From IMG/VR virus record IMGVR_UViG_3300037488_002294, positions 1 through 31,917 of that record: DNA of 31,917 bases; one strand, written 5' to 3'. Both the position numbers and the translations under genes were made by a program. This DNA comes from a virus. How positions within the stretch are numbered: position 1 is the stretch's first letter; each line of letters opens with the position of its first letter. The notes beneath the pieces are model-generated. The model ran no database searches. It was not told the DNA's origin and was given only the letters and a program-made list of their open reading frames with translations. Below, one piece after another: positions 9,084 to 23,752 of this stretch.

Positions 9084-9090
9084 TTTTCTC

Positions 9091-10961: not shown

Positions 10962-11008
10962 AGTTTTTTATTTTAAGTTAATAATATTTTTTTATGGTGT
11001 AGCCCTAT

Positions 11009-11198: not shown

Positions 11199-11524
11199 TA
11201 TATCCCCATTAATTGTTTAAATTTATCACTTTTCTTATAACAAATTACATAAAAATTTGGCTCCAAAAAAACATAATAATCTTTATATTTTTTTAGATTA
11301 ATCTTTTTGTAATGTGATTTTTTATAAGTTGTTATAAGTTTTTTAAAATTACCCTCAATACAATTTTGGCAACCTTCAATTTTAGTTTTAATAGACCAAA
11401 TCGTTGCCCTATTCGTCCCAAGCTTTTTAGCAATCTCAGTTAAAGTTTTACCTTCAATTGAGCCAAGTTCTTTAATTTTTTGTAGTATTATAAAATGCTG
11501 GGTTTGTGCTTCAGTGTTAGTCAT
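11198..11524 (-). CDS. Helix-turn-helix DNA-binding protein
   Basis: 108 residues. Residues 24-48 (KTLTEIAKKLGTNRATIWSIKTK) form a standard HTH: the first helix holds EIAKKLG and the recognition helix NRATIWSIK. The C-terminal half is Lys/Tyr rich with no known effector domain. The start overlaps the upstream gene by 4 bases. Its position right before the recT promoter, whose -10 lies in a palindrome, suggests it may control that promoter; this is inference. Confidence 0.65.
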   Translation of the reverse strand: MTNTEAQTQHFIILQKIKELGSIEGKTLTEIAKKLGTNRATIWSIKTKIEGCQNCIEGNFKKLITTYKKSHYKKINLKKYKDYYVFLEPNFYVICYKKSDKFKQLMGI

Positions 11525-11970: not shown

Positions 11971-11971
11971 A

Positions 11972-12616
11972 CTATCTCCCCTCACTCATTTCCCAAAGCT
12001 TTTCGGCTTTCGTTGTTTCATCTTCTTCTTCCTCTTCTTCCTCCTCCTCCTCCTCTTCATCCTCATCTCTCCTATTTATTTTGTCAATAACTATACACTC
12101 AATCTCGTCCCCAATTTGATTAACATATTTTTTAGGCAAATATACTTCGCAATTTTCCATATTATAAAAATAGATTTCTGCATCGTCGCCCAGTGATTCA
12201 ACATCACCTTCATACATAAATTCAACCGCATTATCAATAAATGTTTCAATTGCTTCTGCGAGACTTTTACCAGCGCCTTCGATGCCATATTTTTTATTAT
12301 GGAATCTAATTTCTTGATTTGCTTTAATTAATCTCTTCATTTCCGACGCGCATAAACGCTTTTGCAAGTCTTGTTGTATTTTAAGATTTTCCGCATCGGT
12401 GAAAGCCTCAAAGTAAGGCACGGCTGGGCAATTTAACGATTGCCTATTTTTAGCGATTGCATAAGCAACATAATTAATGTCTAGGATTCCCCTTTGTTCG
12501 TCATAATTGCAGGCTTCAAAAAAATTCTCACCAATTAATGTCCAATCATCTTTTCGGATAGTTTTGTTTATTTCAAAAATTTTCTTTTTGTTGCTTACTA
12601 AAATGTGTGTTTTCAT
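11972..12616 (-). CDS. Hypothetical protein with poly-glutamate tail
   Basis: 214 residues. Residues 1-180 are an ordinary mixed fold with no recognised motif. Then RRDEDE runs into about 15 successive Glu/Asp residues (a GAA/GAG microsatellite near 12025-12070) and a short amphipathic end. The acidic tail could mimic DNA, or bind SSB-like or basic proteins, as in some phage anti-host proteins, but nothing proves it. The leader is the AU-rich AAAAACTATG type. Confidence 0.6.
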   Translation of the reverse strand: MKTHILVSNKKKIFEINKTIRKDDWTLIGENFFEACNYDEQRGILDINYVAYAIAKNRQSLNCPAVPYFEAFTDAENLKIQQDLQKRLCASEMKRLIKANQEIRFHNKKYGIEGAGKSLAEAIETFIDNAVEFMYEGDVESLGDDAEIYFYNMENCEVYLPKKYVNQIGDEIECIVIDKINRRDEDEEEEEEEEEEEEDETTKAEKLWEMSEGR

Positions 12617-12640
12617 AGTTTTTAAATTTAAGTTAATGTT

Positions 12641-12859
12641 TTAATATCCGTCTCCGTTTCCGTTTCCGTCTCCGTCTCCGTTTCCGTCTCCGTTTCCGTA
12701 TCCGTATCCGTTTCCGTCTCCGTATCCGTTTCCGTCTCCGTATCCGTTTCCGTCTCCGTTTCCGTATCCGTCTCCGTATCCGTCTCCGTTTCCGTTTCCG
12801 TATGTAATTTCCACAGATTGATTTTCTTCTTTTATTAAGTTGCCCATAAAGTTTACCAT
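12641..12859 (-). CDS. Gly-Asn/Asp/Tyr dipeptide-repeat protein
   Basis: 72 residues from the ATG at 12859, which overlaps the stop of the previous gene (ATGGTAA); a start at 12883 would add eight residues. A 20-residue ordinary N-terminus (NFMGNLIKEENQSVEITY) is followed by about 50 residues in which every second residue is Gly and the others are Asn, Asp or Tyr. It is encoded by repeats of GGNNAC-type hexamers. There is no secretion signal. The alternating Gly pattern is unlike the RTX nonapeptide. It may be a flexible, sticky or phase-separating tail, or a slippage product of a short gene. Confidence 0.6.
   Translation of the reverse strand: MVNFMGNLIKEENQSVEITYGNGNGDGYGDGYGNGDGNGYGDGNGYGDGNGYGYGNGDGNGDGDGNGNGDGY
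12644..12802 (-). repeat. Hexanucleotide microsatellite (GGAAAC/GGAGAC/GGATAC)
   Basis: About 26 consecutive hexamers differ only at the fourth base (A, G or T), seen on the plus strand as TCCGTT/TCCGTC/TCCGTA units. The unit is six bases, so gain or loss of copies keeps the frame and changes the protein by two residues each time. GC content and periodicity are unlike the rest of the window. Confidence 0.95.
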
Positions 12860-13158
12860 TTTGATTGGTCGCAGTTCATACAAAAAATCACATTAGCTGT
12901 ATCTAGACTTATGTCTAAACATTTATCAAGAATAGTTTCTGGTAATTTACCTTTTATTGCCAACTCGCCTAAGCCTTGGGTAGTTCCCCATCTCCGAATA
13001 ATTGAAGCGTTCGTAATATAAGTTTTGCCATCTTTTTCTCTCACATTACCTATTACATTCCAACCTCGATTTAAAACCAAAATCTGAATTGGTGAGGGTT
13101 GATATTCAGATTCTGATTTTTTTATGTAAATTTCATTATTTATTGTTATTTCTTTCAT
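12853..13158 (-). CDS. Conserved phage hypothetical protein (IRRWGTTxGLGELA motif)
   Basis: 101 residues. The segment LNRGWNVIGNVREKDGKTYITNASIIRRWGTTQGLGELAIKG follows a pattern I recall from many small phage proteins: an RGWxxxG strand, then ASxIRRWGTxxGLGELA. Their function is not known. The C-terminus has CMNCDQSKW. It is the first gene downstream of the structured RNA locus (AU-rich AAAAACTATG leader), so it may be transcribed from the promoter at 13588-13616 through that RNA. Confidence 0.65.
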   Translation of the reverse strand: MKEITINNEIYIKKSESEYQPSPIQILVLNRGWNVIGNVREKDGKTYITNASIIRRWGTTQGLGELAIKGKLPETILDKCLDISLDTANVIFCMNCDQSKW

Positions 13159-13199
13159 AGTTTTTAAATTTAATTGTTAATAATATTGCCTTTTTACAG

Positions 13200-13580
13200 A
13201 AGGCTAACTGCAATTGTGGCGGGACTTGAACCCACACTAAGACGGCACTAGAACCTTTCTACCGTTGATAACGCGTATTTCTACGGCTAGTCTTCCTCTA
13301 CACAATCTACCCTTTATTCAGAGGAGCGACCAAGCCCGTAAATAAAGTATTTTTGCACCATCTTTTGCCGTGCAAGCTAAATATTTATAAAGCTAGCGGA
13401 ACTAAAGTTAAAACTTTATCAGCTTGTCCCGCTAGTCATTTAAATATTCACGATTTATTAACAAAGCCCCGCATTACTCCCCTTGGGAGATTTCTTCCTG
13501 CACCTCACGATAAAATCAATAACTGAATTACCGCTTTGTTATGCCCTCTATATTTCCCTCATTAGTTTTTTTAGTAGTGA
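13200..13580 (-). ncRNA. Structured non-coding transcript with stacked hairpins, ends in a tRNA-like element
   Basis: About 480 bases (13159-13638) hold no convincing gene but start from a consensus promoter on the minus strand. In order of transcription: a helix GCTTTGTTA/TAACAAAGC (13541-13533 with 13467-13459) encloses about 65 nt and an inner CTCCC/GGGAG hairpin. Next is a long hairpin at 13448-13380 of three perfect blocks (8 bp AATATTTA, 7 bp CTAGCGG, 7 bp TAAAGTT) separated by bulges. A 6-bp TTGCAC/GTGCAA hairpin lies at 13375-13353. The tRNA-like unit at 13307-13212 comes last. GC is higher than in neighbouring genes. The class is not recognised; tmRNA, SRP and RNase P signatures were looked for and not found. 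Confidence 0.6.
13212..13307 (-). tRNA. tRNA-like element (degenerate or long-variable-arm tRNA)
   Basis: On the minus strand the ends form a 7-bp acceptor stem (GATTGTG with CACAATT, one G-T pair). The 3' side carries a perfect T-arm GTGGG-TTCAAGT-CCCGC (13235-13219). Total length is 96 bases, so a long variable arm (Leu/Ser/Tyr class) would be required. The middle does not fold into a clear D-arm and anticodon arm. The best anticodon-like loops are TTATCAA on a stem with a bulge, or AAAGGTT on a mismatched stem. No CCA is encoded (GCA follows). It could be a decayed tRNA, a tRNA mimic or a processing signal for the RNA upstream. Confidence 0.4.
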
Positions 13581-13587
13581 TGCAATC

Positions 13588-13616
13588 AATATAAACGGGC
13601 TTGTTTTAATTGTCAA
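13588..13616 (-). promoter_or_regulatory. Consensus sigma70 promoter for the structured RNA locus
   Basis: TTGACA (13616-13611), 17-base spacer, TATATT (13593-13588) on the minus strand. This is one of the closest matches to the consensus in the window. Transcription would start near 13580 and run into the hairpin array, not into an ORF. It lies just after the stop of the 88-residue gene. Confidence 0.75.
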
Positions 13617-13638
13617 GTATTATTTTAATTATTTTTAT

Positions 13639-13905
13639 TTATTTTACCCAATATGGTTTTTGGTACTTTTCTTTAGCTAGTTCGTAAAGTATTTTTATTT
13701 GATTTTCATTTAAATCTATTTTTTTATTTTCTGATTCAATTATATAATCTTCTGCAAAATTCTGATAGTGCCAACAAGTAGATGTTATAATTATATTTTC
13801 GCAAAAAAATTTATTGATACATCTATCAGGATATTTTTTAAAAGTTCCTTCAAAACGAACTGGATTTGTTTCAATCAACTTTTTTATTTTAAAATATTTT
13901 ATCAT
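13639..13905 (-). CDS. Hypothetical protein, 88 residues
   Basis: A basic, aromatic-rich small protein with scattered Cys (CINKFFCEN, TCWHYQ) and an amphipathic C-terminal helix. It starts 4 bases inside the end of the receiver-domain gene (ATGA), so it is coupled to it and might be its partner. No family recognised. Confidence 0.55.
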   Translation of the reverse strand: MIKYFKIKKLIETNPVRFEGTFKKYPDRCINKFFCENIIITSTCWHYQNFAEDYIIESENKKIDLNENQIKILYELAKEKYQKPYWVK

Positions 13906-14213
13906 AAATCCTTTAAATTAAGTTGTTTTTTACTGATAACGTCATCAATAAATTCATTGCCAACAAGGTTATCATCGGCACTCGATAATATTATTTTAGT
14001 CTTTGTAATGTCTTTTATTTCTTTCGCAATTTCTGTGCCTAATTCATTATGTAAATTATTATCAAGGATAATTAGGTCATAATTATTGCTTTTTAATAAT
14101 TCGAGTGCCTCATCCTTAAATTCAACAAATGTTAAAGTGTGTCCCGTGTCCTTAGCTTGATGATTCCAAACTAGGGACATAATTGGACAATCTTCGATTA
14201 TTAAGATGTTCAT
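13902..14213 (-). CDS. Stand-alone response-regulator receiver domain (CheY-like)
   Basis: 103 residues from the ATG at 14213 (an in-frame TTG at 14249 would add 12 atypical residues). Receiver features: MNILIIED (acidic pair Glu7-Asp8), YDLIILDNNL with the phospho-acceptor Asp51, ILSSAD (Ser77/78) and ISKK (Lys95/96). The chain stops at the end of beta5/alpha5, so there is no output domain. Such a protein could take phosphate from host histidine kinases or act as a decoy or bridge in host signalling. The family is clear; the partner and purpose are unknown. Confidence 0.75.
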   Translation of the reverse strand: MNILIIEDCPIMSLVWNHQAKDTGHTLTFVEFKDEALELLKSNNYDLIILDNNLHNELGTEIAKEIKDITKTKIILSSADDNLVGNEFIDDVISKKQLNLKDL

Positions 14214-14265
14214 AAAGTTGAAATAATACCTAAGATTAAGATTGAACAATAAATTATGGTAATTG

Positions 14266-14601
14266 TTAACATATTAACCCCTTTTCTTTTAATAATAGCC
14301 ACATTTTGCCAGCGGTATCTGCAAGTGATTCGTTTTTTTCTCTGCCAATTGAAATATAATCATCATTTAAATAAACAATTCCACCACTACATAAAAGATA
14401 TTCTTGTTTGTTAATTTTAGGCAAAGCATCAAGTATTGTTTCGAGCTCGTAGCTTTTAACATGAACTTTTCTATCAGCATCTGTAGAATGACTTGGAAAA
14501 GCCGAATTCCTCAACTGTTGCCCGTAAAAATAATAATCAGTTTCAGCTTCAAACCCCGCTTCTTTTAGTTTTTTAGATATTTCGTAAGATGTTGTTTTCA
14601 T
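14266..14601 (-). CDS. Conserved phage hypothetical protein
   Basis: 111 residues. It begins TTSYEISKKLKEAGFEAETDYYF and ends LADTAGKMWLLLKEKGLI, a start and end pattern I recall from a widespread family of small phage proteins of unknown role (sequence-to-structure reading suggests a small alpha/beta domain). An AGGAAAA ribosome site precedes the ATG. It follows the 127-residue gene with a one-base gap. Confidence 0.6.
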   Translation of the reverse strand: MKTTSYEISKKLKEAGFEAETDYYFYGQQLRNSAFPSHSTDADRKVHVKSYELETILDALPKINKQEYLLCSGGIVYLNDDYISIGREKNESLADTAGKMWLLLKEKGLIC

Positions 14602-14602
14602 A

Positions 14603-14986
14603 TTAATTTTCCTCCTTTGGATTAAAAAAATGTTTGCCGTTTCGATAAATAATATCTGGAAGTTTTTCCTCTATCCCAGCTGATACCCATTGTTCACCGT
14701 TATAATTCGCATAATGTGCCCCTATAAGTCTAGCCCAGCGACCTTCGTCTCCTTTTTTCGGTTCAAAAATATGTTCTGATTCTGGAGCAACATAAATTTG
14801 CTCTATTCCACGAAAATCTTCAATAACTCCAGTAGTAAAATCACAAAGCTCGCTTTCGTTTAATTGATTTATTGCAAAGTCTAATAGTTGAAGCATAGTA
14901 CCATGAGCTTCGGAAAAATTGACGCCAAACTCTTTCATCATGTAAAGTGCTTTAATCGGGCAATCGTAGTAATATTTTTTTTTCAT
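14603..14986 (-). CDS. Conserved hypothetical protein, 127 residues
   Basis: Begins KKKYYYDCPIKALYMMKEFGVNF; the middle is acidic (SEHIFEPKKGDEG) and the end is DIIYRNGKHFFNPKEEN. Possibly paired with the 111-residue protein encoded next. No motif gives a function. AU-rich AAACTATG leader. Confidence 0.55.
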   Translation of the reverse strand: MKKKYYYDCPIKALYMMKEFGVNFSEAHGTMLQLLDFAINQLNESELCDFTTGVIEDFRGIEQIYVAPESEHIFEPKKGDEGRWARLIGAHYANYNGEQWVSAGIEEKLPDIIYRNGKHFFNPKEEN

Positions 14987-14989
14987 AGT

Positions 14990-15226
14990 TTATAAATTAT
15001 CTGCATTAATTAAATTTGTTTCATTGAGTTTAAACTCTTCTATTTTAAACTTTCCGTAGTTTAAATAATAGTCTAAATCCTGTTCTTCGTCATCATTATC
15101 TTTCATAATAATTTTATTTATAAGCTCTTTGTGTTTTTCGTAATTTGTTAAATCAACAGAGCTTAAAACATAGATTTCATGTGTTCCGCCAAATTCTCCC
15201 GTTAGTTTTATTTTAAATGTTTTCAT
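14990..15226 (-). CDS. Hypothetical protein, 78 residues
   Basis: Small acidic protein (MKTFKIKLTGEFGGTHEIYVL..., DNDDEEQDLDYYLNYGKF). It looks like a single alpha/beta domain without Cys or a membrane segment. Leader of the AAAAACTATG type. Not recognised. Confidence 0.5.
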   Translation of the reverse strand: MKTFKIKLTGEFGGTHEIYVLSSVDLTNYEKHKELINKIIMKDNDDEEQDLDYYLNYGKFKIEEFKLNETNLINADNL

Positions 15227-15239
15227 AGTTTTTATTTAT

Positions 15240-15458
15240 TTAAGTTAATAATTTCGTTAATATTGCACTAAAGCAATTTGAACCCAAATATTGTCTTGTC
15301 AATATTGTTTCATTTTTATTTTTAGTAGCAAAAACTCTATAATAATGTCCCGCAACATCTCGATATTCTGTTATTAATTTATCTTTAAAATAAAAATCTT
15401 TGGGGCAATCGTTATATATTTTATCAAAAATTTCTTTTTTTAATTCTTCATAGTCCAT
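15240..15458 (-). CDS. Hypothetical protein, 72 residues
   Basis: Small mixed protein (DYEELKKEIFDKIYNDCPKDF...). AU-rich leader ending AAATTATG. No family or motif recognised; one of a row of small accessory genes. Confidence 0.5.
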   Translation of the reverse strand: MDYEELKKEIFDKIYNDCPKDFYFKDKLITEYRDVAGHYYRVFATKNKNETILTRQYLGSNCFSAILTKLLT

Positions 15459-15483
15459 AATTTATTTATTTAAATTGTTAATG

Positions 15484-15951
15484 TTAATTTTTTACCCACT
15501 GAGTTGTTATAATCTGTTTTTGGATTACTTCTCCCATAAATTCAGGCTTTCCGTAATCCTCTCCACTTTTTTGCGTAGAAAATTGATAAAATTTACCAGT
15601 TGGAATATGTTTCATTATTTCATTAATGTAAACATATTTTGAATCGCTATCCGCATCACTTGTATCTTCCACTTCTTCTAGCTCCTCAAAATCTGAAAGA
15701 CATGTGTTGTCTTCAAGTTCCGCCACAATTTCCTCAATTGTTTTTTCATATTTAAACATTGTTTTCAAATCTTCATTTCCCAAAATTTCACCTAATTTAA
15801 AAAGAAATCTATATAAATCATTGTCAATTTCATAATCACATTTGATGGAATACATATCACCAGCCGACTCTTCAACTATATCTTCAAGACCTTTATTAAC
15901 TTGATTTCTAAATTTATCAACCAAGTTTGTTATTTTTTCGTTGTTTTTCAT
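15484..15951 (-). CDS. Hypothetical acidic protein, 155 residues
   Basis: Acidic, mostly helical N-terminal 90 residues, then an Asp/Glu/Ser linker (EELEEVEDTSDADSDSK) and a short C-terminal domain with HIPTGKFYQFS. No known domain. It lies downstream of the helicase loader. Leader AAAAACTATG. Confidence 0.55.
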   Translation of the reverse strand: MKNNEKITNLVDKFRNQVNKGLEDIVEESAGDMYSIKCDYEIDNDLYRFLFKLGEILGNEDLKTMFKYEKTIEEIVAELEDNTCLSDFEELEEVEDTSDADSDSKYVYINEIMKHIPTGKFYQFSTQKSGEDYGKPEFMGEVIQKQIITTQWVKN

Positions 15952-16000
15952 AGTTTTTAATTGTTAAAGTTGTTAATATTAAAATCAGTTTGCTCCCTGA

Positions 16001-16774
16001 TTATAAAATAGTTTTACTCCTACGCATACTTTCACCCGTAAAAGTTAATAAAAAGCCACCTTCTTTTAATCTATCATATATTCTATGTTCAAAATTTTTA
16101 ATTTCTAACGCTGATAAATTACTTATTAAAATTGTTGGCATTAAATTTTCATATCTCGTGTTTATTATTCTAAATAAAAGCAATTTTTCATGTTCGCTTC
16201 CGACTTGGACTCCAAATTCATCAAGAATTAAAAGGTCAATATTACAAAATTGATTTAAAACATCAGATTCGCTATTTTCACTTTTTTTTGCATAGGTCTC
16301 TTTAATTTTAGAGAAAGCATCGACTACATTTAAAAAAAGCGCTGTTTTGTTTAAATTTTCAATAACATAATTTGCAACCGCACAAGCTAAATGAGTTTTT
16401 CCATTCCCAACTTTTCCTGAAAGTATAACTGAAATTCCGTCTTTTAAATTAACTTCAAAATTTGTTGCATATTCAATCAACATTTTTTTATTATAAATTT
16501 GCTCCTTTGTTTTTGCTTCGTATGTTTCAAAACTATTTTTTTTAAATCTAAGAGGAATTAAAGATTTTTTAAAATTATACTCAATTGATAATCTTCTAGT
16601 CTCGGCATCTTTAGCTTTTTGTCTTTCGATAGCTTTTAATTCTCTTTCTTTTTCTAGCTCCTCTTCGCATCTTGGACATTTAGATTCCCTATTTGGAAAC
16701 ACATAAGCCAGCTGGTTGCCGTGTTTTTCGCAATTGATTTCTTTTTTTTGTAGATATTCATTAAAATTAATCAT
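16001..16774 (-). CDS. dnaC-like: DnaC-type helicase loader ATPase
   Basis: 257 residues from the ATG at 16774, which has GGAGG about 6 bases upstream and overlaps the stop of the initiator-like gene; a longer start at 16813 is less likely. The N-terminal metal site has Cys15, His18, Cys33 and Cys36, as in DnaC. Then come the AAA+ motifs: Walker A SGKVGNGKTH (119-128), Walker B LLILDEFG (181-188), sensor 1 ILISNLS (215-221) and the arginine-bearing ERRIYDRL-like box (here HRIYDRLKEGG). It would load the host replicative helicase on phage DNA. With the DUF6291 gene upstream it forms a lambda O/P-like pair. Confidence 0.85.
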   Translation of the reverse strand: MINFNEYLQKKEINCEKHGNQLAYVFPNRESKCPRCEEELEKERELKAIERQKAKDAETRRLSIEYNFKKSLIPLRFKKNSFETYEAKTKEQIYNKKMLIEYATNFEVNLKDGISVILSGKVGNGKTHLACAVANYVIENLNKTALFLNVVDAFSKIKETYAKKSENSESDVLNQFCNIDLLILDEFGVQVGSEHEKLLLFRIINTRYENLMPTILISNLSALEIKNFEHRIYDRLKEGGFLLTFTGESMRRSKTIL

Positions 16775-17396
16775 TCCAACCTCCGTCGTTTTTATAATAA
16801 TCGGGGTCATCATATTGGGGCTGTGGCATTCCTGCTGGTTTTTTAAAGTTATTATTTGTAAAGTTGTTATTATTTTGCTCCCAAGTTCTTACGCAAGCTT
16901 TCCAATCTTTCATTTGAATACCTTTTAGTTTCCAGCCCCTTGCTTCGTAATAATTGCTAAATGATTCTGCATTAACATTATTTTTTCTGTCTAAACAATA
17001 ATTTTTAATTTCATCAATTGTTGGTTTTATAAATAATTTAGATTTTGATTTAGATTCTAGATTTAGATTTTCATTTACATTAGGATTTACATTTACATTT
17101 ACATTAGCTTCGATTTTGCTTTTAGTTTGCTTCGCTTTTGCTTCCTTTTTGCTTCCTTTTTGCTTTTTTATACAGCCATTATTAAATCTTTTTCTATTAG
17201 CGTCAAGTTGCGGTTTTACTAGTTGAAACATACCATAAGCCGTGCCGTCTAATTGCTCTACTTTCTCATCGAGAGCATAGGAGCAAATTGCATCAAAAAG
17301 TTGTGCTTTTTCCTCGGTTTTTAGGCATTTTGAAGCGTCATAAAAACTGCGATAAAATATAAAACTATCTCGTTTATTTTGTGTTTGATTCGTCAT
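16767..17396 (-). CDS. DUF6291 protein, replication-initiator-like
   Basis: 209 residues. Residues 1-75 match DUF6291: FIFYRSFYDASKCLKTEEKAQLFDAICSYALD and MFQLVKPQLDANRKRFNNG. A repetitive linker (about 84-125, alternating N-V/N-P/N-L then S-K) joins a C-terminal domain with YEARGWKLKGIQMKDWKACVRTWEQN, the small helical domain shared with DnaT/DnaD-like and other phage initiators. Together with the DnaC gene it overlaps, it probably opens or marks the origin. A ribosome site AAGGA precedes the start. The linker is coded by an ATTTAC-type simple repeat. Confidence 0.8.
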   Translation of the reverse strand: MTNQTQNKRDSFIFYRSFYDASKCLKTEEKAQLFDAICSYALDEKVEQLDGTAYGMFQLVKPQLDANRKRFNNGCIKKQKGSKKEAKAKQTKSKIEANVNVNVNPNVNENLNLESKSKSKLFIKPTIDEIKNYCLDRKNNVNAESFSNYYEARGWKLKGIQMKDWKACVRTWEQNNNNFTNNNFKKPAGMPQPQYDDPDYYKNDGGWND

Positions 17397-17595
17397 GATT
17401 TTCCTTGATTAACTTTTCTTTTAAATTTTCTTTGTAATTCCAAAGAATAGATTTGATATTAGATTTGCTTGTTAAAGAAATTTTCTCAGCTTCAAGAATA
17501 GGCATAATATAGCCTACAAGCCTTTTAGTTTCTTCTGTTAATAAATCCTCTAGTTCCATATCTTCACTTGAATTACTTTGCTTTTGCCCTCTCAT
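17374..17595 (-). CDS. Hypothetical protein, 73 residues
   Basis: Acidic start (SSEDMELEDLLTEETKRL), then a helical segment. It overlaps the DUF6291 gene by 23 bases, so it is coupled to the replication genes and may assist them. A TTGACA-16-TATTAT match overlaps its own ATG and was not taken as its promoter. Confidence 0.5.
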   Translation of the reverse strand: MRGQKQSNSSEDMELEDLLTEETKRLVGYIMPILEAEKISLTSKSNIKSILWNYKENLKEKLIKENHDESNTK

Positions 17596-17603
17596 AATAC
17601 TTA

Positions 17604-17771
17604 TTAATTTTTGTTTGTCAAATTGTTAATTTGTTGTTTTAATTCTGTATTTTCCTCATTTAAATCATTAATCTTTTTTTCAAAATGCAATAATCTATCT
17701 CTAAATTCAAAAGTATTTAAAGAAAGATAATCAATATCAAGGTGTTTTTTGACTAGCTCGCTTATCCTCAC
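17604..17771 (-). CDS. 55-residue coiled-coil protein, GTG start
   Basis: From a GTG at 17771: RISELVKKHLDIDYLSLN, then heptads (FEFRDRLLHFEKKINDLNEENTELKQQINNL). An in-frame stop lies just upstream of the GTG, so no longer start exists. Its first 35 bases overlap a 26-residue ORF in another frame that carries the usual AU-rich gene leader. The two may be halves of one frame-shifted gene, or the first may be a leader peptide. Confidence 0.45.
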   Translation of the reverse strand: MRISELVKKHLDIDYLSLNTFEFRDRLLHFEKKINDLNEENTELKQQINNLTNKN

Positions 17772-17817
17772 AGTTTCTTAGTTTTACCTCAATTTTAATT
17801 ATAAAAAATGTTTCCAT
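17737..17817 (-). CDS. 26-residue ORF with full gene leader
   Basis: Encodes METFFIIKIEVKLRN and a short basic end, stopping inside the 55-residue ORF. Its support is the upstream sequence, AAATAAAACTATGGAAA, which matches the leader of most genes in this block. Either a leader peptide coupled to the next ORF or the front of a frame-shifted gene. Confidence 0.35.
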   Translation of the reverse strand: METFFIIKIEVKLRNCEDKRASQKTP

Positions 17818-17835
17818 AGTTTTATTTGTTTTAAA

Positions 17836-18231
17836 TTAATCGTTAAAAAATTCATTAATTCCTCTTTGAGTCTCTTCGCTTTGCTCTTCGAGTGTTTCAA
17901 GTTCGAGATTCCATAGACAAATACCGTATACTGTATAAGTCGTGTTATAACATTCATAATCTTCAACACTTAATCCACAAAATTGCGAACCTGCAATATT
18001 AAAGATTATTTCATCTCCATAACAAGTTCTAACTTTTTTATTTTTAAAAGCTAAAAGCACCCTAGAGAGCGTAAGCTCTTCACCATCATATTCTCTAAAG
18101 GGAACTGATATTGTGTTATTGCCTTTTTTAGCATATTCTTTTTTTAAAGCCTCTTCATAGCTACAGCCATGAATTGCTTCGAGTATAAATTTACGATTCT
18201 CTTGTTGAATTTGTTGTAATGGTTTCGTCAT
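17836..18231 (-). CDS. Hypothetical protein under a structured RNA leader
   Basis: 131 residues from the ATG at 18231 (TKPLQQIQQENRKFILEAIHGCSYEEALKKE). The alternative GTG at 18258 would add nine residues and overlaps the stop of a short upstream ORF (TAGTG). The middle holds LTLSRVLLAFKNKKVRTCYGDEIIF and the C-terminus is acidic. The opening resembles a family of small phage or plasmid proteins of unknown function. The striking feature is its leader with two hairpins and alternative pairing (18229-18320), which implies tight control of this gene. As first gene of the segment reading into the replication genes, it could set their level. Confidence 0.6.
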   Translation of the reverse strand: MTKPLQQIQQENRKFILEAIHGCSYEEALKKEYAKKGNNTISVPFREYDGEELTLSRVLLAFKNKKVRTCYGDEIIFNIAGSQFCGLSVEDYECYNTTYTVYGICLWNLELETLEEQSEETQRGINEFFND

Positions 18232-18320
18232 AACTCCACGCTTTGATTTTGGCGACACTAAGCGTGGAGGCTTAGTGTCATATAAAATAAATCTGCTCCA
18301 CCAGATTTATAAAGAAAGGA
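18229..18320 (-). promoter_or_regulatory. RNA leader with two kissing hairpins and an alternative start-site pairing
   Basis: On the minus strand hairpin 1 has a 9-bp perfect stem (18310-18302 with 18295-18287) and loop GTGGAG. Hairpin 2 has a 10-bp perfect stem (18279-18270 with 18263-18254) and loop CTCCAC. The two 6-nt loops are exact complements. The string CTCCACGCTT (18269-18260), made of loop 2 plus the 3' arm, is also fully complementary over 10 bp to AAGCGTGGAG (18243-18234), which ends 2 bases before the ATG at 18231. So hairpin 2 and the start-site helix exclude each other. A 7-codon ORF runs through hairpin 2. Confidence 0.7.
18258..18281 (-). CDS. Putative 7-residue leader peptide (uORF)
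   Basis: ATG at 18281 reads MTLSLHA and stops at TAG, whose G is the first base of the in-frame GTG of the next gene (TAGTG). The codons cover the 5' arm, the loop and part of the 3' arm of hairpin 2, so a translating ribosome would open it. There is no clear ribosome site, only an AU-rich stretch, so expression is uncertain. Confidence 0.3.
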   Translation of the reverse strand: MTLSLHA

Positions 18321-18326
18321 AAGGAT

Positions 18327-18356
18327 AGTATACTCTTTTTTTAAGAACTTTTTCAA
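18327..18356 (-). promoter_or_regulatory. Sigma70-type promoter for the structured leader
   Basis: TTGAAA (18356-18351), 18-base spacer, TATACT (18332-18327) on the minus strand. The start point would be near 18320, about nine bases before hairpin 1, so the RNA would begin almost directly with the hairpin pair. Confidence 0.65.
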
Positions 18357-18386
18357 TGAATATAGTCCCGATAATTTCACTATCCA

Positions 18387-18466
18387 ATTCTCTTAATGTT
18401 GCAACCCCCTTGATAGGACATTAAGAGAATAAGAGAGTGATAGACGGGGGGTTAACTACTCCCCCC
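18387..18466 (-). terminator. Strong hairpins, possible terminator or pseudoknot, between two gene groups
   Basis: A 13-bp perfect stem (ATTCTCTTAATGT 18387-18399 with 18418-18430) has an 18-nt loop containing AACCCCC (plus strand 18403-18409). Next to it GGGGGG (18446-18451) can pair with CCCCCC (18461-18466), or with the AACCCCC loop, giving an H-type pseudoknot as an alternative. It lies between the stop at 18537 and the promoter at 18327-18356, where a terminator is expected for leftward transcripts. No long T-run follows, so the mechanism is open. The rest of 18259-18536 holds no gene. Confidence 0.5.
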
Positions 18467-18536
18467 TAAAACTATGAAAAAAAACAATAAAATACATTAC
18501 CAAAGAAAATAAAGTTTTTTTCAATTTACTCAATAA

Positions 18537-18713
18537 TTATTCTTTGTCAACATGATTTATTATTTCTGTTATTTTTTGGATCAAAATTGGAATTAACCAA
18601 AGCACTAAAAAAGCAAGAATAATAAGCCCGCCAAATATTGGGCTAGTAGCAATAATAGCAATGCTGATTAATGCTATAACTAAATAAATTAATATTTGTA
18701 ATGATATTTTCAT
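18537..18713 (-). CDS. Two-span membrane protein, 58 residues
   Basis: Start placed at the ATG at 18713, which has the AAAAACTATGAAA leader; the longer frame from 18755 would overlap the gene before. Two hydrophobic helices (about 5-22 and 26-46: ILIYLVIALISIAIIA and GLIILAFLVLWLIPI). Function unknown; last gene before the structured 18.3-18.5 kb region. Confidence 0.6.
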   Translation of the reverse strand: MKISLQILIYLVIALISIAIIATSPIFGGLIILAFLVLWLIPILIQKITEIINHVDKE

Positions 18714-18718
18714 AGTTT

Positions 18719-19018
18719 TTAATTTTCGTAGTTTCCTGATAAATGATAAGTGCAAGTTTTACATTTTGCACGGCATAAATTAAGCTCGGTGCTAGTGTTT
18801 TTTATTGCGTTCTCATTATGAATCAATTGACTTTCCATTTCATCGACTTTGTTTTGCAAATTCTCGACTTGTATTTCAAGTTCAATTATTTCATCGTTTT
18901 TAAGCTCATTGAAGCGTGTTTTATACTTCATTAAGTCAAAGACATATAAAGCAAATAAAACGGCTAGTAGGGCTAAAAGAATCTTTAGAAATTTTTTATT
19001 GTTTGGAGATATTTTCAT
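18719..19018 (-). CDS. Membrane-anchored coiled-coil protein
   Basis: 99 residues: basic start, one membrane helix (about 11-29, LKILLALLAVLFALYVF), then a coiled coil (about 35-78, with EIQVENLQNKVDEMESQ) and a Cys-rich end CRAKCKTC. The layout resembles an i-spanin, but it sits among early genes. Leader AACTATGAAA. Confidence 0.6.
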   Translation of the reverse strand: MKISPNNKKFLKILLALLAVLFALYVFDLMKYKTRFNELKNDEIIELEIQVENLQNKVDEMESQLIHNENAIKNTSTELNLCRAKCKTCTYHLSGNYEN

Positions 19019-19020
19019 AG

Positions 19021-19182
19021 TTATCTAATTTTAATGTTATCACAAGAAACATCAAAATGTTTCGTGCAGAATTTGTTGAAGTAGTCTTGTTCTGTAAGCT
19101 TAGGTTTTTTAAATTCAGAAATACAAATAAGAATTAAAAAAATAAAAAGCATTAGAAAAGCAAACATTTCTTCTTTAAACAT
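19021..19182 (-). CDS. 53-residue small membrane protein
   Basis: MFKEEM, then a hydrophobic helix (about 7-22, FAFLMLFIFLILICIS), then a polar tail with two Cys. The ATG overlaps the end of the yopX-like gene by 8 bases (ATGTTTAA), and its stop lies 2 bases before the next start, so it fills the gap exactly. Function unknown. Confidence 0.55.
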   Translation of the reverse strand: MFKEEMFAFLMLFIFLILICISEFKKPKLTEQDYFNKFCTKHFDVSCDNIKIR

Positions 19183-19540
19183 TTTTAACCCCCGTAATTA
19201 ATTCAGGATTTTCGTAAATGTTGCCAACGATTTTACAAAAAGTAAAAACGCAATTATCCAAAGCATCCCATCTGCCTTTGTTGAAAGGGTCATTTAGCCA
19301 TTTTACTTCTTTAAAATATGAATTTCGGTTATTTTCACAATAAATTTTTAAAATATCGCCCTCAAAAATTTCCTTGTCGTTTTTGTCAACTAAGCCCGTG
19401 TATTGCAACAAAAATCCATCATTTAAATTTGCACCATCTCCGCCATTCCAAACTTCTTTTAATCGCCAATCTATTGAGTCCACACTCCACATCTCTTTTT
19501 TCCAATTATGCCAAAAAGCAAATTTAATTTCTCTACTCAC
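19175..19540 (-). CDS. YopX family protein
   Basis: 121 residues with the YopX pattern: SREIKFAFWHNWKKEMW at the start, LLQYTGLVDKNDKEIFEGDILKIY in the middle and FCKIVGNIYENPELI at the end. YopX proteins are frequent in phages and prophages and form small beta-rich oligomers; their role is not known. It overlaps both neighbours by 8 bases. Confidence 0.9.
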   Translation of the reverse strand: MSREIKFAFWHNWKKEMWSVDSIDWRLKEVWNGGDGANLNDGFLLQYTGLVDKNDKEIFEGDILKIYCENNRNSYFKEVKWLNDPFNKGRWDALDNCVFTFCKIVGNIYENPELITGVKNV

Positions 19541-19748
19541 GGTTCCCCCCTTTTTTAGTTTCGATATTATTTTTCTCTAAAATTAAACAAATTTGCTTTA
19601 AAGTTATAAAAAAATTAGGGTTGTGTTCGTCAATGTATGACTTAGTGCCACGAATTGATTGCTTGCGAAGTTTAAAGGCTTCGATTACTTCAAAAACAAT
19701 TTGTCGATGAAGTGTTGAATTTGGTTTTATTTTGATTGTTAATGACAT
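19533..19748 (-). CDS. Hypothetical protein, 71 residues
   Basis: Basic, helical (LHRQIVFEVIEAFKLRKQSIRGTKSYIDEHN, then LKQICLILEKNNIE). Possibly a small DNA- or protein-binding domain, but no HTH is clear. It overlaps the yopX-like gene by 8 bases. Confidence 0.5.
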   Translation of the reverse strand: MSLTIKIKPNSTLHRQIVFEVIEAFKLRKQSIRGTKSYIDEHNPNFFITLKQICLILEKNNIETKKGGNRE

Positions 19749-19754
19749 AAAGAT

Positions 19755-19946
19755 TTAAATTTGAGTTAATATTAAATTGACCACGCCAGCCGTAAGTAAA
19801 AGCCAAAAGCCGTATTTGTAGAATTTCTGTTCTAGTTTATTCCGTTCCTTCTTGCGTCGGTTATTTTGTTTAATTTTAGGCTTGTTTTTTTGGTAATATT
19901 CCTTTTGTTTTTGTTTTATTTCCTCTTTAGTTTTTTTAATTTTCAT
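19755..19946 (-). CDS. Very basic protein with C-terminal membrane helix
   Basis: 63 residues: residues 1-43 are about half Lys/Arg/Gln (KKTKEEIKQKQKEYYQKN...), followed by one hydrophobic helix (45-61, YGFWLLLTAGVVNLILT). A tail-anchored layout that could tether nucleic acid to the membrane; inference only. Leader AAAAACATATGAAA. Confidence 0.55.
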   Translation of the reverse strand: MKIKKTKEEIKQKQKEYYQKNKPKIKQNNRRKKERNKLEQKFYKYGFWLLLTAGVVNLILTQI

Positions 19947-19965
19947 ATGTTTTTAATTAATTTAG

Positions 19966-20268
19966 TTAATATAAAAGTAAGTTTTTAATACTTTCCAATT
20001 CTTGTTTTGATTTTTTAAGTTCTTCTTCTAGCCTGTCGCAATTGTAGCAATGATTTACTACGGCATACCCTCCAGAACTCACAAACCCATCGACATCGGA
20101 CACATAGACATACACAGAACCACCGCCACCGCCTTTACCGTGTTTCATAATTGATTCACCATTTTTACCTAATTCATCACAACTAGCATCTCCACCTCCA
20201 ACGGTAATTAAAAAGCTTTTTGGTTTTTCTTTTTTATGTTTTTTAAATAGTTTTTTTATAAATTTCAT
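19966..20268 (-). CDS. Gly-rich small protein with basic start
   Basis: 100 residues: Lys-rich residues 1-17, then a Gly-rich middle (TVGGGDASCDELG, HGKGGGGGSVYVYVSD, SSGGYAVVNHCYNC) and a coiled coil at 75-97. Three Cys may bind metal. Not recognised. Leader AACAACTATG. Confidence 0.5.
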   Translation of the reverse strand: MKFIKKLFKKHKKEKPKSFLITVGGGDASCDELGKNGESIMKHGKGGGGGSVYVYVSDVDGFVSSGGYAVVNHCYNCDRLEEELKKSKQELESIKNLLLY

Positions 20269-20278
20269 AGTTGTTAAA

Positions 20279-20821
20279 TTAATTGTTAATGATTAAATTT
20301 TCTTTTTTGAAAAAATCTTTTATTTCTAAAATTTTTGTTTCAATATTATTTAAAGTTAAATCTGAAATTACAAAGTCAAAACGATTTTGAGAAACAAAAA
20401 AATCTCCTTCCTCACCATAATTTTTTAATACCAAAGAAAATTCACAAATTTTAAAAGAAAAATCTTGATGTTTATAATCAAAAAATGTTGTTAAAATTTC
20501 ATGCTTACTTAAATGATCACTAAATCTAAAAATATTGTGATTCTTTTTAAAATAATAAGAGTTTGCACCATAATTTTTTAAAACATCTTTTTGAAAATTA
20601 TACTTAAAAAAATCTTTTTTAAAATCGGCAAGCAAACTAATTTTTTGTTCGCAAAAATAACTACAAAATATCTTAGATTCCTTTTTTATGTTTTTTGCTC
20701 CTTTTTTTTCGCAAATTTTTGAACAAAATTTTCCTTCTTTTTTTAAAGAATAACCTGCATTTCTACCGCAACAATCGCACAAATAAACAATTTTTTGACA
20801 ACAATAACAGTTTTTTTCCAT
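20279..20821 (-). CDS. Cys-rich zinc-finger-like protein
   Basis: 180 residues. The first 60 hold repeated Cys pairs: CYCC, CDCCGRN, FCSKICEKK and FCSYFCEQK. These look like FCS/MYM-type or treble-clef zinc sites. The remaining 120 residues are Phe/Lys rich without a known domain and end in an amphipathic helix. Zinc binding is likely; the target is unknown. Many A-runs (poly-Lys and poly-Phe codons) make the gene especially AT-rich. Confidence 0.6.
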   Translation of the reverse strand: MEKNCYCCQKIVYLCDCCGRNAGYSLKKEGKFCSKICEKKGAKNIKKESKIFCSYFCEQKISLLADFKKDFFKYNFQKDVLKNYGANSYYFKKNHNIFRFSDHLSKHEILTTFFDYKHQDFSFKICEFSLVLKNYGEEGDFFVSQNRFDFVISDLTLNNIETKILEIKDFFKKENLIINN

Positions 20822-20839
20822 AGTTGTTTAAATTAATTG

Positions 20840-21115
20840 TTAATTTTTGTGAAAATAATAATGCAATTCGTCCGCTTCGTGTTTTTTTAAAACCTTGAGA
20901 ATGTATATAAAACAAGGGTTCCAACTCGCTTGATCTTGAGTGATTATTAAGCGACCGCCATTTTCACTTTCAAGTAAATAAAAAGCTTCGGCAAATTGTT
21001 TAGCTTTTCCTTTTTCTGTCGTTCTTCTCCAATAGTCATTTATTTCCCTCTTAATAATTTTTGATTCGTCATCTCCACTTCTTGAGCTGATCTGAATTAT
21101 TTTTAAAACTTTCAT
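20840..21115 (-). CDS. Hypothetical protein, 91 residues
   Basis: An alpha/beta small protein (KVLKIIQISSRSGDDESKIIKREINDYW..., GGRLIITQDQASWNPCFIYILKVL). No family recognised. AU-rich leader AAAAACTTATG. Confidence 0.5.
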   Translation of the reverse strand: MKVLKIIQISSRSGDDESKIIKREINDYWRRTTEKGKAKQFAEAFYLLESENGGRLIITQDQASWNPCFIYILKVLKKHEADELHYYFHKN

Positions 21116-21125
21116 AAGTTTTTAA

Positions 21126-21284
21126 TTAATTGTTAATTTTCCAAACATCAGCGATTACCGCTTGAAGCCTGTGGGCGTTAAACTCTAATTGATTTTCGAG
21201 TTTAACTTTATAAGTTTTTGAATCGTGCGATTGCTTGAAACAAAAAAGGGCGATTAAAAGAATTGTTAAATAAATTTTATACAT
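21126..21284 (-). CDS. 52-residue signal-anchored small protein
   Basis: Start placed at the ATG at 21284 (MYKIYLTILLIALFCFKQ), just after the duplicated gene end; the frame extends upstream to 21320, but those codons are the duplicated 3' end of the neighbour read in another frame. One hydrophobic helix at 3-16, then a polar tail. The ATG overlaps the ancestral stop of the neighbouring gene copy (ATGTATAA). Confidence 0.55.
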   Translation of the reverse strand: MYKIYLTILLIALFCFKQSHDSKTYKVKLENQLEFNAHRLQAVIADVWKINN

Positions 21285-21452
21285 TTTGGAAAGCCCCCGT
21301 TTGTTTTTTAAATGCATCATTAAATTTAAATTCGCTTCTTAATTCAATTAAAGCATCCAAGAGGGAGTAAGAGAAAAAATTTGGAAAGCCCCCGTTTCTT
21401 TTTTAAATGCTGGATTGAATTTAAATTCTGCTCTTAATTCAATTAAAGCATC
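21285..21452. repeat. Two 73-bp direct copies of a gene end, 22-bp linker
   Basis: Copy A 21285-21357 and copy B 21380-21452 are the same length and differ at 8 of 73 positions by my alignment. Both code (minus strand) for DALIELRxEFKFNxAFKKxTGAFQ. The linker 21358-21379 contains a 16-mer, GGAGTAAGAGAAAAAA (21364-21379), that recurs at 24116-24131 in the control region. Confidence 0.9.
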
Positions 21453-21671
21453 TTCGTTGCCGTCTTTTGCATCAAAAAGCAAGCTAAACCAGATTTCTTT
21501 TTCTTCTTCATTACTAGCCCAATCATTATTTAAAGCTTGTTCAACGGTATTAAAAAAAACTCCGTTTACAAGTAAAATTCCTTGGATTCTAAATTTTTCC
21601 TCATTTATTTTTGTAATGCGATTTTCAAGATTTTTCTTGATTGCCGTTAGTTTTTGTAATTTTGTTTTCAT
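21348..21671 (-). CDS. Hypothetical protein with altered C-terminus
   Basis: 107 residues. An N-terminal coiled coil (KLQKLTAIKKNLENRITKI) precedes a mixed domain ending DALIELRAEFKFNPAFKKETGAFQ. After that the frame runs into the linker and part of the second copy, adding IFSLTPSWML. The second copy, in the other frame, would end ...TGAFQNV and stop on ATGTATAA. It overlaps the next ATG there, so the gene seems to have gained a near-copy of its own end. Function unknown. Confidence 0.6.
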   Translation of the reverse strand: MKTKLQKLTAIKKNLENRITKINEEKFRIQGILLVNGVFFNTVEQALNNDWASNEEEKEIWFSLLFDAKDGNEDALIELRAEFKFNPAFKKETGAFQIFSLTPSWML

Positions 21672-21706
21672 AAGTTTTTGTTTTAGTTGTTAATTTTTTA
21701 AGAGTT

Positions 21707-22336
21707 TTATAAATTTAATAAACAAACTAAAGCGATTGCCTCGCCTGTTTTGTTCAATATTTTAATTTGTCTTTTATCTTGCGTGTTGCCTTCAATTAGA
21801 ACTGTTTGCATTTTATCATCACCTTGCACGCACTCAAGCGCTTGTTTTAGCTTTTTAACTGATATTGCTAATCTAAAATCTGGCTTTGGTGTGATTAAAA
21901 GTCGCGCTAAATCTGGCATAGACTCAGGGTCGCCAACTTTTAATTTGTGCGGTTTGTCAAATTGCCCTTTTACCGCACGATTCCAAACATCAAGACGATT
22001 CCAAACATCAAGGTTCGATTCTATGCTTAAATTCATATCGTTTTTTTTGTCGTGGTCGTTATTGATTGTTGTGAAACCAGCGTAATAAAAATAAACGGGT
22101 TCATCGAAATTTTCAAAACTTGCTTCAACTTTAATGCTTGCAAAAACGAAGCCATCAGTTGCGCTTATTTCTAATTTTTCAACAAAAGCCCCGTCGCAAT
22201 CAAAATCAATTACTTTTTCAAATTTTATGAACTGTAAATAAGGGCGAGATTCACAACTATTTTTAGCAATTTTAGCGAGATTCCTAAGTTTTTTAAGTTG
22301 GTCCGGTGTTATTGTTGCATTAATTAATTTTTTCAT
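21707..22336 (-). CDS. Hypothetical protein, possibly sliding-clamp-like
   Basis: 209 residues, beta rich. The phrase LEISATDGFVFASIKVE (about 56-72) and the later LKQALECVQGDDKMQTVLIEG resemble strands and the ATDG(H)xLA signature of DnaN-type clamps, but the length is half to two thirds of a normal clamp. It carries an exact LDVWNR-LDVWNR duplication. If it is a clamp-like protein it would serve the replication genes of the same block. I give this as a guess to be tested by structure prediction. Confidence 0.4.
   Translation of the reverse strand: MKKLINATITPDQLKKLRNLAKIAKNSCESRPYLQFIKFEKVIDFDCDGAFVEKLEISATDGFVFASIKVEASFENFDEPVYFYYAGFTTINNDHDKKNDMNLSIESNLDVWNRLDVWNRAVKGQFDKPHKLKVGDPESMPDLARLLITPKPDFRLAISVKKLKQALECVQGDDKMQTVLIEGNTQDKRQIKILNKTGEAIALVCLLNL
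21977..22012. repeat. Perfect 18-bp tandem duplication in a gene
   Basis: Two identical copies of ACGATTCCAAACATCAAG add six residues (LDVWNR twice) in frame. Identical copies suggest a recent event. Confidence 0.95.
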
Positions 22337-22346
22337 ATGTTTTATT

Positions 22347-22448
22347 TTAAATTAATAATAATTTTTTTGATAAATATCGTTTTTTGCTGTATTCTTTTAG
22401 TTTTAAATCTTCAATTTGAGCTTTTAAATCTTGTAGTTCTTTTGTCAT
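22347..22448 (-). CDS. 33-residue basic helical peptide
   Basis: MTKELQDLKAQIEDLKLKEYS, then a Lys-rich end. A short coiled coil. Supported by the AAATAACTATG leader and by filling the gap between two genes exactly. Function unknown. Confidence 0.4.
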   Translation of the reverse strand: MTKELQDLKAQIEDLKLKEYSKKRYLSKKLLLI

Positions 22449-22450
22449 AG

Positions 22451-22693
22451 TTATTTAAATTTTGAAATTAAGTGAAAAAATAAATGAACTAAAAAATATC
22501 GATTCCTTATTTCTACTGTTATATTTAATTTTTCTTTATTTTGATTGACTAATTTTTCAATGATTTTTTCTTTTTCTGTATTGAATAATTTGCAAAAATC
22601 AGCATCAGCAAATTTTTCATCGATTATTGAATTAAAAGGCATTGCATCAATTTGCGTTTTTGTGAAAGTATATTTTTTAAAAATATTTCTCAT
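22451..22693 (-). CDS. Hypothetical protein, 80 residues
   Basis: Basic, hydrophobic-rich small protein (RNIFKKYTFTKTQIDAMPFNS..., KLNITVEIRNRYFLVHLFFHL). The leader is a TATATATATATATG stretch, unlike the neighbouring starts. No family recognised. Confidence 0.5.
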   Translation of the reverse strand: MRNIFKKYTFTKTQIDAMPFNSIIDEKFADADFCKLFNTEKEKIIEKLVNQNKEKLNITVEIRNRYFLVHLFFHLISKFK

Positions 22694-22704
22694 ATATATA
22701 TATA

Positions 22705-22944
22705 TTAATTTAAGTTTAAAAGTTCTTCGATCGCCGAGTCATACGCTACGCCGATTTCATCATCCGAAAAATCATTAATATCAATGTTTCCGAGGAATCT
22801 TCTTGATTTTATTTCGTCAAGAAATGCTTCAAAATATAAAAAAGAATTGTGGTCGTATTGAGCGACTTCCTCTTTCGATTTATTTTCAAACATATAGTTG
22901 AAGTAGTTTTTAATTTGGTTTTTTAATTCTTGTAAGTCTTTCAT
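22705..22944 (-). CDS. Hypothetical acidic protein, 79 residues
   Basis: Helical (MKDLQELKNQIKNYFNYMFENKS..., FLDEIKSRRFLGNIDINDFSDDEIG). No domain recognised. AU-rich leader AAAACATATGAAA. It lies in the early part of the leftward operon, where anti-host genes are common. Confidence 0.5.
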   Translation of the reverse strand: MKDLQELKNQIKNYFNYMFENKSKEEVAQYDHNSFLYFEAFLDEIKSRRFLGNIDINDFSDDEIGVAYDSAIEELLNLN

Positions 22945-22994
22945 ATGTTTTATTTTAAATTAATAAATAGGCTTTGTGGTGTTGCTGTTAATTG

Positions 22995-23300
22995 TTATAT
23001 ATCTTTTAATTTTTCTTTTTCTTGAGAAATAAAATCAGGATTTAAAAAATCGCCGTTTTTAATCGCAAAATTATGGAAATTAATCAATTCATCTTTCGTA
23101 AGTCTTTTAACAATTCCATGATTAATAAATTTTTTTCGCGAAAAATCTAAAATTGACGAAAGGCATTCATCCTTTGTTTTATACATTGTGGCCGTTGTTT
23201 GGACGGTTTTGCCGTATTTTGAAGTTGATATTTTCAAAACAAAATTATCTTCTAAATTTATTTCGCTTGTTGCTGTGTTATTTTCTAATTTAATGTTCAT
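22995..23300 (-). CDS. Hypothetical protein, 101 residues
   Basis: Beta-rich first half (NIKLENNTATSEINLEDNFVLKISTS) and helical second half. No family recognised. Second gene of the leftward operon, with the AU-rich leader AAACTATG. Confidence 0.5.
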   Translation of the reverse strand: MNIKLENNTATSEINLEDNFVLKISTSKYGKTVQTTATMYKTKDECLSSILDFSRKKFINHGIVKRLTKDELINFHNFAIKNGDFLNPDFISQEKEKLKDI

Positions 23301-23362
23301 AGTTTAAAGTTTTAAATTAATAAAGCGGGTTTTTTTTGGTGTTTTTTTAGTTATTTTTTTAA

Positions 23363-23752
23363 TTATTTTTTTAATTCCTCAACTTGTGTTTTGCTGAATA
23401 AATAGCAAGTGCAAAATCTTTTATCGAGTTCCTCGCCTGCGGGCTGACAATTATTATCAACCATTTTTATTTTTATAATTTTCGGACTAGAAAAAAATAA
23501 ATAACCTTTCTCACCTTTTTTCACCGCGAAACCTTTCGCAATCCAGCCTTTAAAAGTTGACAACTCTTCGTCGTCTTTTAAGCCATGAATTTGCTTAATG
23601 TAATAATTTAAAGGTCTCGGTATAATATTTGCGGTGTCCATCGCTTTGAGTGAACGAGCATTGTTCGCCAAAGCTAAAAGATTGCTAAAAGCTGGATTTT
23701 TTAATTTTGCTTTTAATTCGTTTTTTTCGTTAAAATTAAGTTCGTTTTTCAT
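23363..23752 (-). CDS. ArdC N-terminal-like ssDNA-binding protein, first early gene
   Basis: 129 residues. The region from about 68 to 129 follows the ArdC N-terminal pattern: FKGWIAKGFAVKKGEKGYLFF (Trp70, KKGEKG 78-83), then a variable charged loop and CTCYLFSKTQVEEL (116-126). In ArdC this domain binds single-stranded DNA and is followed by a metallopeptidase that is absent here. As the first gene behind the early promoter it is well placed to protect entering DNA from restriction or nucleases. Fold likeness is moderate; the role is inferred. Confidence 0.55.
   Translation of the reverse strand: MKNELNFNEKNELKAKLKNPAFSNLLALANNARSLKAMDTANIIPRPLNYYIKQIHGLKDDEELSTFKGWIAKGFAVKKGEKGYLFFSSPKIIKIKMVDNNCQPAGEELDKRFCTCYLFSKTQVEELKK

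Follow-up and report, generated by a model that had tools for sequence, protein, structure and literature searches.

A candidate two-state RNA leader with a decoy of the start site upstream of a phage replication operon

Known leaders of similar design

RNA leaders with mutually exclusive structures are, as such, a known kind. In the H-type pseudoknot translational riboswitches (SAM-II, preQ1 and SAM/SAH) the start region is paired with a loop, and in guanidine-II two hairpins are joined through their loops. The leader described here differs from these: it has no conserved ligand-binding core, the letters of its loops are free to change and it has no Rfam match. The analysis gave neither a ligand nor a protein partner for it.

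Nearest in logic to the present leader are those of repZ in ColIb-P9 (IncI-alpha) and of related plasmids of the IncB, IncK and IncL/M groups. The repZ gene of ColIb-P9 depends on a pseudoknot immediately 5' of its ribosome binding site, and antisense binding prevents it (PMC8383071). The present leader is like this type in preceding a replication gene, in its predicted kissing with a competing hairpin, in having a start codon within the leader and in the diversification of its loops, and to judge by its sequence it also has a loop that could pair with a stretch of the start region, in this case loop 2 with a site that we call S3. However in ColIb-P9 the competitor is a separate antisense RNA, whereas here the predicted competitor is a hairpin of the leader itself with a copy of the start site, though an antisense transcript of this region may exist as well, and the pseudoknot of ColIb-P9 activates, whereas for the one discussed here repression is more likely. 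The ColIb-P9 type also has a translated leader peptide that ends in the inhibitory structure, whereas the reading frame of the present leader ranges from one codon to an in-frame fusion. The genes that follow the ColIb-P9-type leaders differ from those here, and the sequence relation was judged through Rfam only.

Two other systems have something in common with this leader. The T4 gene 32 leader is likewise on a phage replication-related mRNA and has a pseudoknot 5' of the start that gives translational control, but it needs binding of gp32, its pseudoknot is about 67 nt upstream and no kissing decoy is described for it (PMC3014915). The aapA3 mRNA, for a type I toxin of Helicobacter pylori, likewise has mutually exclusive hairpins with co-transcriptional control of access to the start, but these are metastable hairpins that hide the SD, with no kissing decoy described and no concerted change at three sites (PMC6733600). 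No antisense gene was seen at the present leader.

With Rfam release 15 at gathering thresholds there was no match in the window, by which we mean the whole 31,917-nucleotide stretch of DNA analysed, and none at the element in ten relatives. Loose thresholds gave no convincing match either; the best of those below threshold, RF02589, aligns with a CCACGC/GCGTGG helix at 27.7 bits, far under its cut-off of 67, and was set aside. An architecture with a decoy in the same RNA and three freely changing sites was not found in the literature searched; the original prediction, made from the sequence alone, had likewise placed the arrangement in no described class. What we consider new is the presence within one RNA of a hairpin with a copy of the start site, which would compete for a shared loop, and the joint change of letters at the three sites. 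Our preferred reading, which we hold to be probable, is that this is a cis-acting bistable RNA leader controlling translation of the first gene of a replication operon, with a kissing interaction between two hairpins as the ON state and a pseudoknot between loop 2 and S3 as the OFF state.

The leader and its operon

The window, 31,917 bases, constitutes an IMG/VR record that is classed as linear. It belongs to a tailed phage, and its genes include those for a terminase, a head-tail adaptor, a major head protein, RecE/RecT-like proteins and a DnaC-like helicase loader. An ORF at 11972-12883 has a glutamate run and adjoins one with Gly-Asn/Asp-Gly repeats; both are possibly variable in length.

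The leader, including its promoter, covers 18229-18356 on the minus strand, the span originally given for it, and lies in the intergenic stretch upstream of the replication operon. All of its parts and the genes that follow are on this strand. The sigma70-like promoter (18327-18356) has TTGAAA at 18356-18351 and TATACT at 18332-18327 with an 18-nt spacer; it is where it was said to be, both by reading the sequence and in a promoter scan, with 10 of 12 matches. A start of the RNA near 18320 is plausible from this match, and we call the promoter plausible only, because the region holds 4 consensus matches where 1.3 are expected. Just upstream, at 18377-18440, there is a 23-nt inverted repeat that is 87% complementary, and one relative, L001, has a different hairpin at the site matching it.

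Hairpin 1 (18287-18310) has a 9-bp stem, ATAAATCTG (18310-18302) with CAGATTTAT (18295-18287), and its loop, L1, is GTGGAG (18301-18296). Hairpin 2 (18254-18279) has a 10-bp stem, GACACTAAGC (18279-18270) with GCTTAGTGTC (18263-18254), and its loop, L2, is CTCCAC (18269-18264). The two hairpins and the complementarity of their loops had been predicted and were found to be correct base by base. The middle of the linker between the hairpins is TTTTA (18282-18286), U-rich in nearly all families, and it runs up to a start codon, AUG1 (18279-18281), the G of which is the first base of stem 2. From AUG1 there is the predicted 7-codon frame MTLSLHA (18258-18281), with a product that is not conserved; its stop codon TAG (18260-18258) overlaps a GTG at 18258. 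Hairpin 2 is followed by the A-rich linker GCCAAAATCAAAGC (18240-18253), which is 10-14 nt long in relatives, and then by S3 (18234-18239), a third copy of GTGGAG that ends two bases 5' of the ATG (18231-18229) that we call AUG2. The 10-mer AAGCGTGGAG at 18243-18234 is the exact complement of CTCCACGCTT at 18269-18260, again as predicted, and could pair over all 10 nt if stem 2 were partly opened.

Folding of the leader recovered both hairpins, with z = -2.84. The window has a single instance of the triple arrangement, for which we required a 6-nt match, a stem 2 of at least 8 bp and a start codon following the third copy. Among 400 dinucleotide shuffles of the entire sequence there were 4 instances, none of them with an ATG at the base of hairpin 2.

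AUG2 starts a gene for a 131-aa protein (17836-18231), the first gene 3' of the leader and one with no assigned function. The protein has no Pfam or PHROG match, a protein search of the phages collection gave no match, and no member of its family was found in the bacterial genome contigs searched. The family has conserved motifs LTLSRVL and TLEEQSEETQ and accompanies the leader in most carriers. Downstream are a DUF6291 gene (16767-17396) and the gene for the DnaC-like helicase loader (16001-16813). In six other records the leader is immediately 5' of the DUF6291 gene or a close relative of it, with the identity confirmed by Pfam for L182, L214 and L189 and based on sequence and search similarity for L324, L332 and L248, and in other phages variable small genes lie between leader and DUF6291. 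DUF6291 is not named anywhere in the literature searched; for a relative in a Riemerella phage the annotation is replication or primosomal protein.

Leaders in related phages

With the 131-aa protein and two DNA patterns as queries, about a dozen distinct leaders homologous to that of the window were recovered. The result that was said to refute the original prediction, namely related phages in which the letters are conserved and the base pairing is not, was not obtained here or in the more distant families described below. Stem 2 has three unlike sequences in the close relatives, all of which pair, and in the 12-sequence alignment both members are changed in 5 of its 10 pairs. In stem 1 a G-C pair next to the loop has become A-U by compensatory change, and there are wobble changes also. 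The two loops change jointly, with GUGGAG/CUCCAC in some close homologues and GUGGAU/AUCCAC in others. Over this alignment 97.2% of cells pair and 7 pairs are changed on both sides, and neither value was reached in any of 500 shuffles, a control that leaves relatedness in. Because of this, and because only one loop position covaries and it has just two states, we treat covariation among the close homologues as moderate evidence when taken alone. S3 is nearly constant among the closest relatives, so that covariation of loop 2 with S3 rests on more distant families. In L040 and L137 there are about 40 extra bases between hairpins 1 and 2, with the hairpins and their complementarity retained.

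A covariance model based on the 12 close homologues, which contained the two stems but no loop-loop pairing, was run on records carrying the 131-aa family. It found L136, L138, L139 and L140, all with loops unlike those of the window, and in L136, L139 and L140 loop 2 has 5-8 nt of complementarity both to loop 1 and to the start site. In the order loop 1, loop 2 and start site, the triplets are GUGCGAG, CCGCAC and GUGCGG in L136, AGGGGAC, GUCCCCU and AGGGGAC in L139, and AGGGCAA, UUGCCCU and AGGGCAA in L140, so that the three sites remain related in this way although their letters differ. At DUF6291 loci we used a scanner for three sites, which looked for a word of 5 nt in the loop of one hairpin, the complementary word in the loop of another and a repeat of the first before a start codon; it replaced a looser scanner without hairpin 1, which gave too many chance hits. 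It gave 32 hits on the gene strand, 15 on the opposite strand and 5 in shuffled sequence of similar length, and of these 26, 2 and 1 respectively had an ATG at the base of hairpin 2.

Further triplets include AGGUUCAA/UUGAACCU/AGGUUCAA and GGACUGAU/AUCAGUCC/GGACUGAU. The words are AGGUUCAA for L332 and L214, GGACUGAU for L324, GACUAGAC for L177, GGUUCGG for L229 and L293, GUGCGG for L248, CGGGGG for L221, AGGGCAC for L199 and GGUUCAC for L453. In all we have 17 representatives with about 12 different triplets in one layout, all from related metagenomic phages. Only the order of the parts, AUG1 and an NCC-A-rich linker recur between the families, and the loops vary freely. L138 and L221 have a match of only 4 nt between loop 2 and S3 (5 at most with flanks). 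L141 was left out as uncertain; its loops pair over 7 pairs, one of them G-U, but it has a poor third site and no AUG1.

For 12 elements the longest matches sum to 79 for loop 1 with loop 2 and to 75 for loop 2 with S3, falling to 37 and 36 on exchange of loops 2 between elements, and none of 20,000 such permutations reached the observed sums, with the proviso that the test is partly circular for elements found by the scanner, which demands a 5-nt three-way match. The members found by the covariance model, the concerted pairs described below, the strand bias and AUG1 are free of this circularity.

Three pairs of leaders, each pair preceding the same downstream gene, have all three sites altered in concert. 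Between L139 and L199 a single change of G to C converts AGGGGAC to AGGGCAC in loop 1 and the start site, and GUCCCCU to GUGCCCU in loop 2; the downstream gene begins MQD[DN]QGNLLRLSHRIL in both and the linker GCCAAACTACA is retained. Between L324 and L332 all three 8-nt sites differ, GGACUGAU being replaced by AGGUUCAA with its complement, and the DUF6291-region proteins are 82% identical. A promoter-like stretch is also kept in this pair, with a match to TTGAC[AT]-17-AATACT where the window has its promoter. Between L216 and L221 the change is from GUGCGG to a GGGG type, and the common gene has MTD[IT]KIRDSKGNIY. A further point in favour of our preferred reading is L453, a single phage record with two leaders of unlike triplets.

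These data also bear on a reading of the repeats as DNA, in which they would form an operator of repeated dyads with three repressor sites. The three repeats do adjoin a promoter. However the repeats occupy hairpin loops, the stems of which are maintained through compensatory changes, the triplet varies between families where an operator would have a fixed site, and an operator gives no reason for AUG1 at the foot of stem 2, for the linker lengths or for the strand bias. With stems, AUG, linkers and gene strand all constrained this reading is weakened, and we regard it as very improbable. At the level of sequence, the two hairpins, both of the alternative complementarities of loop 2, the fixed order of the parts, AUG1 at the base of hairpin 2 and the location before a replication operon are established. 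The two-state leader of the original prediction is supported to the extent that this is a leader acting at the level of RNA, in which loop 2 has two alternative partners that are both kept across unrelated loop sequences; the states themselves are our proposal, discussed below.

AUG1, with its G as the first base of stem 2, is present in 17 of 17 representatives, and the stretch 5' of it is U-rich in nearly all of them, L221 having AATTAACATC. The reading frame from this codon is closed after 1 or 7 codons in some, and in others it overlaps AUG2 or is fused in frame with the gene. Since frame and length vary, the peptide is not the conserved item, and the proposal of a peptide-coding uORF is not upheld, only the AUG itself being kept; the conserved feature may be entry of a ribosome at that point. 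AUG1 and AUG2 are separated by 44-53 nt in every representative, and a hairpin lies in this interval, which could be taken to indicate a bypass of the kind seen in T4 gene 60-type gaps, with a ribosome from AUG1 passing hairpin 2 and resuming at AUG2. However the distance is largely a result of how long the component parts are, what comes after AUG1 (a stop, an open frame or an overlap) has no fixed pattern, and a normal start at AUG2 accounts for the gene. Of all the explanations considered bypass is the least probable, and we give it almost no weight.

Many other loci with relatives of DUF6291 gave no match to the element by the scanner, and the DUF6291 alignment used against genome contigs gave six loci, none with a convincing element. 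A few named phages, chosen for similar terminases or DUF6291-like genes, were also checked, and there was no convincing element in the whole genomes of Venkman and HTVC203P, or around the gene in RAP44, GRAP2, NrS-3, Vibrio 1.013.O, BT-1011 and Aeromonas 4_L372X. With almost no letters fixed, such leaders are missed by sequence-based searches, and the class could be wider than seen here.

Some other features of the records may be mentioned. L229 has a DUF3800-IX RNA (RF02968, 57.5 bits) at 32-104, about 190 nt upstream of the leader, L015 and L177 encode a long tandem repeat protein with NIKA/DIKA-like units, and L221 has a row of three tRNA genes (5277-5509) downstream of the leader.

The proposed switch

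In the switch that we propose, loop 2 would be the shared partner of L1 and S3. In one state it would kiss loop 1 and leave the start region at AUG2 free; in the other it would pair with S3 to give an H-type pseudoknot across the A-rich linker, and initiation would be blocked. Hairpin 1 would then be a built-in decoy that mimics the start site. Since hairpins 1 and 2 are made before S3, the nascent RNA would be expected to be open first, and the balance might shift through exchange at a later stage, or through melting of hairpin 2 by ribosomes that enter at AUG1.

From the sequence, full pairing of loop 2 with loop 1 and full pairing with the start site exclude each other. The calculated energies of the two duplexes, treated as isolated duplexes and not as part of a folded-RNA model, are near equal in most families (-8.0 and -8.0 in the window, -9.6 and -9.0 in L332), which is as would be expected of a balanced switch. 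The linker between stem 2 and S3, 10-14 nt and A-rich in most families, is probably long enough to serve as loop 3 of an H-type pseudoknot.

Assignment of the ON and OFF states depends mainly on the position of S3. In L140, L332 and L324 it includes letters of AUG2, and in the remaining elements it mostly ends 2-6 nt before AUG2, which is within the ribosome footprint. A pseudoknot that takes up letters of AUG2, as in those three, should block initiation, and kissing would then be the open state. The sign could also be the opposite, with the pseudoknot of loop 2 and S3 activating translation and hairpin 1 a cis inhibitor that hides loop 2 by kissing. In ColIb-P9 the repZ pseudoknot does activate (PMC8383071), that leader and the present one both precede a replication gene, and few genes in the window have an SD. 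However this reading does not sit well with the overlap of S3 with AUG2 or the ribosome footprint, where a pseudoknot should block, and we consider it unlikely, though less so than the other alternatives.

With regard to the SD, an SD-like sequence was found before only 7 of the 49 window genes checked. Many of the early minus-strand genes (7972-23752) have a common AT-rich start leader, TTAAC..TTAAA...AAAAACT-ATGAAA, and the scarcity of SD-like sequences together with these start leaders suggests a host with little use of SD. Because of this scarcity the OFF state is better described as occlusion of the start region, as "SD sequestration" may be the wrong wording.

If our preferred reading is true, phage DNA replication genes carry a compact switch with a built-in orthogonal code, and it is a potential design for independent RNA switches. 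A more tentative extension, which we think has only a small chance of being right, is that these leaders form a family of arbitrary-code switches, in which the loop would pick decoy or start site by pairing alone and the three sites would be rewritten together to give each phage and each leader a private code, preventing cross-talk or setting superinfection specificity.

A further alternative is a trans-acting or incompatibility device, with hairpin 1 or whole leaders acting from one RNA molecule on another, by which related phages in the same cell would repress each other's replication genes, with triplets diversifying to escape. The compatibility of I-complex plasmids is set by changes in the RNAI loop (PMC10724649), and triplets do change completely between leaders of the same gene. 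However no second hairpin bearing the loop sequence was found elsewhere in the larger records, beyond matches of a chance type, and we think such a device improbable. The presence of two leaders with unlike triplets in one phage has also to be considered in its favour: L453 has them about 350 nt apart (7080-7524), one with AGGGGAC and the other with GGUUCAC, and the second appears, on reading the sequence of the product, to precede a replication-like protein.
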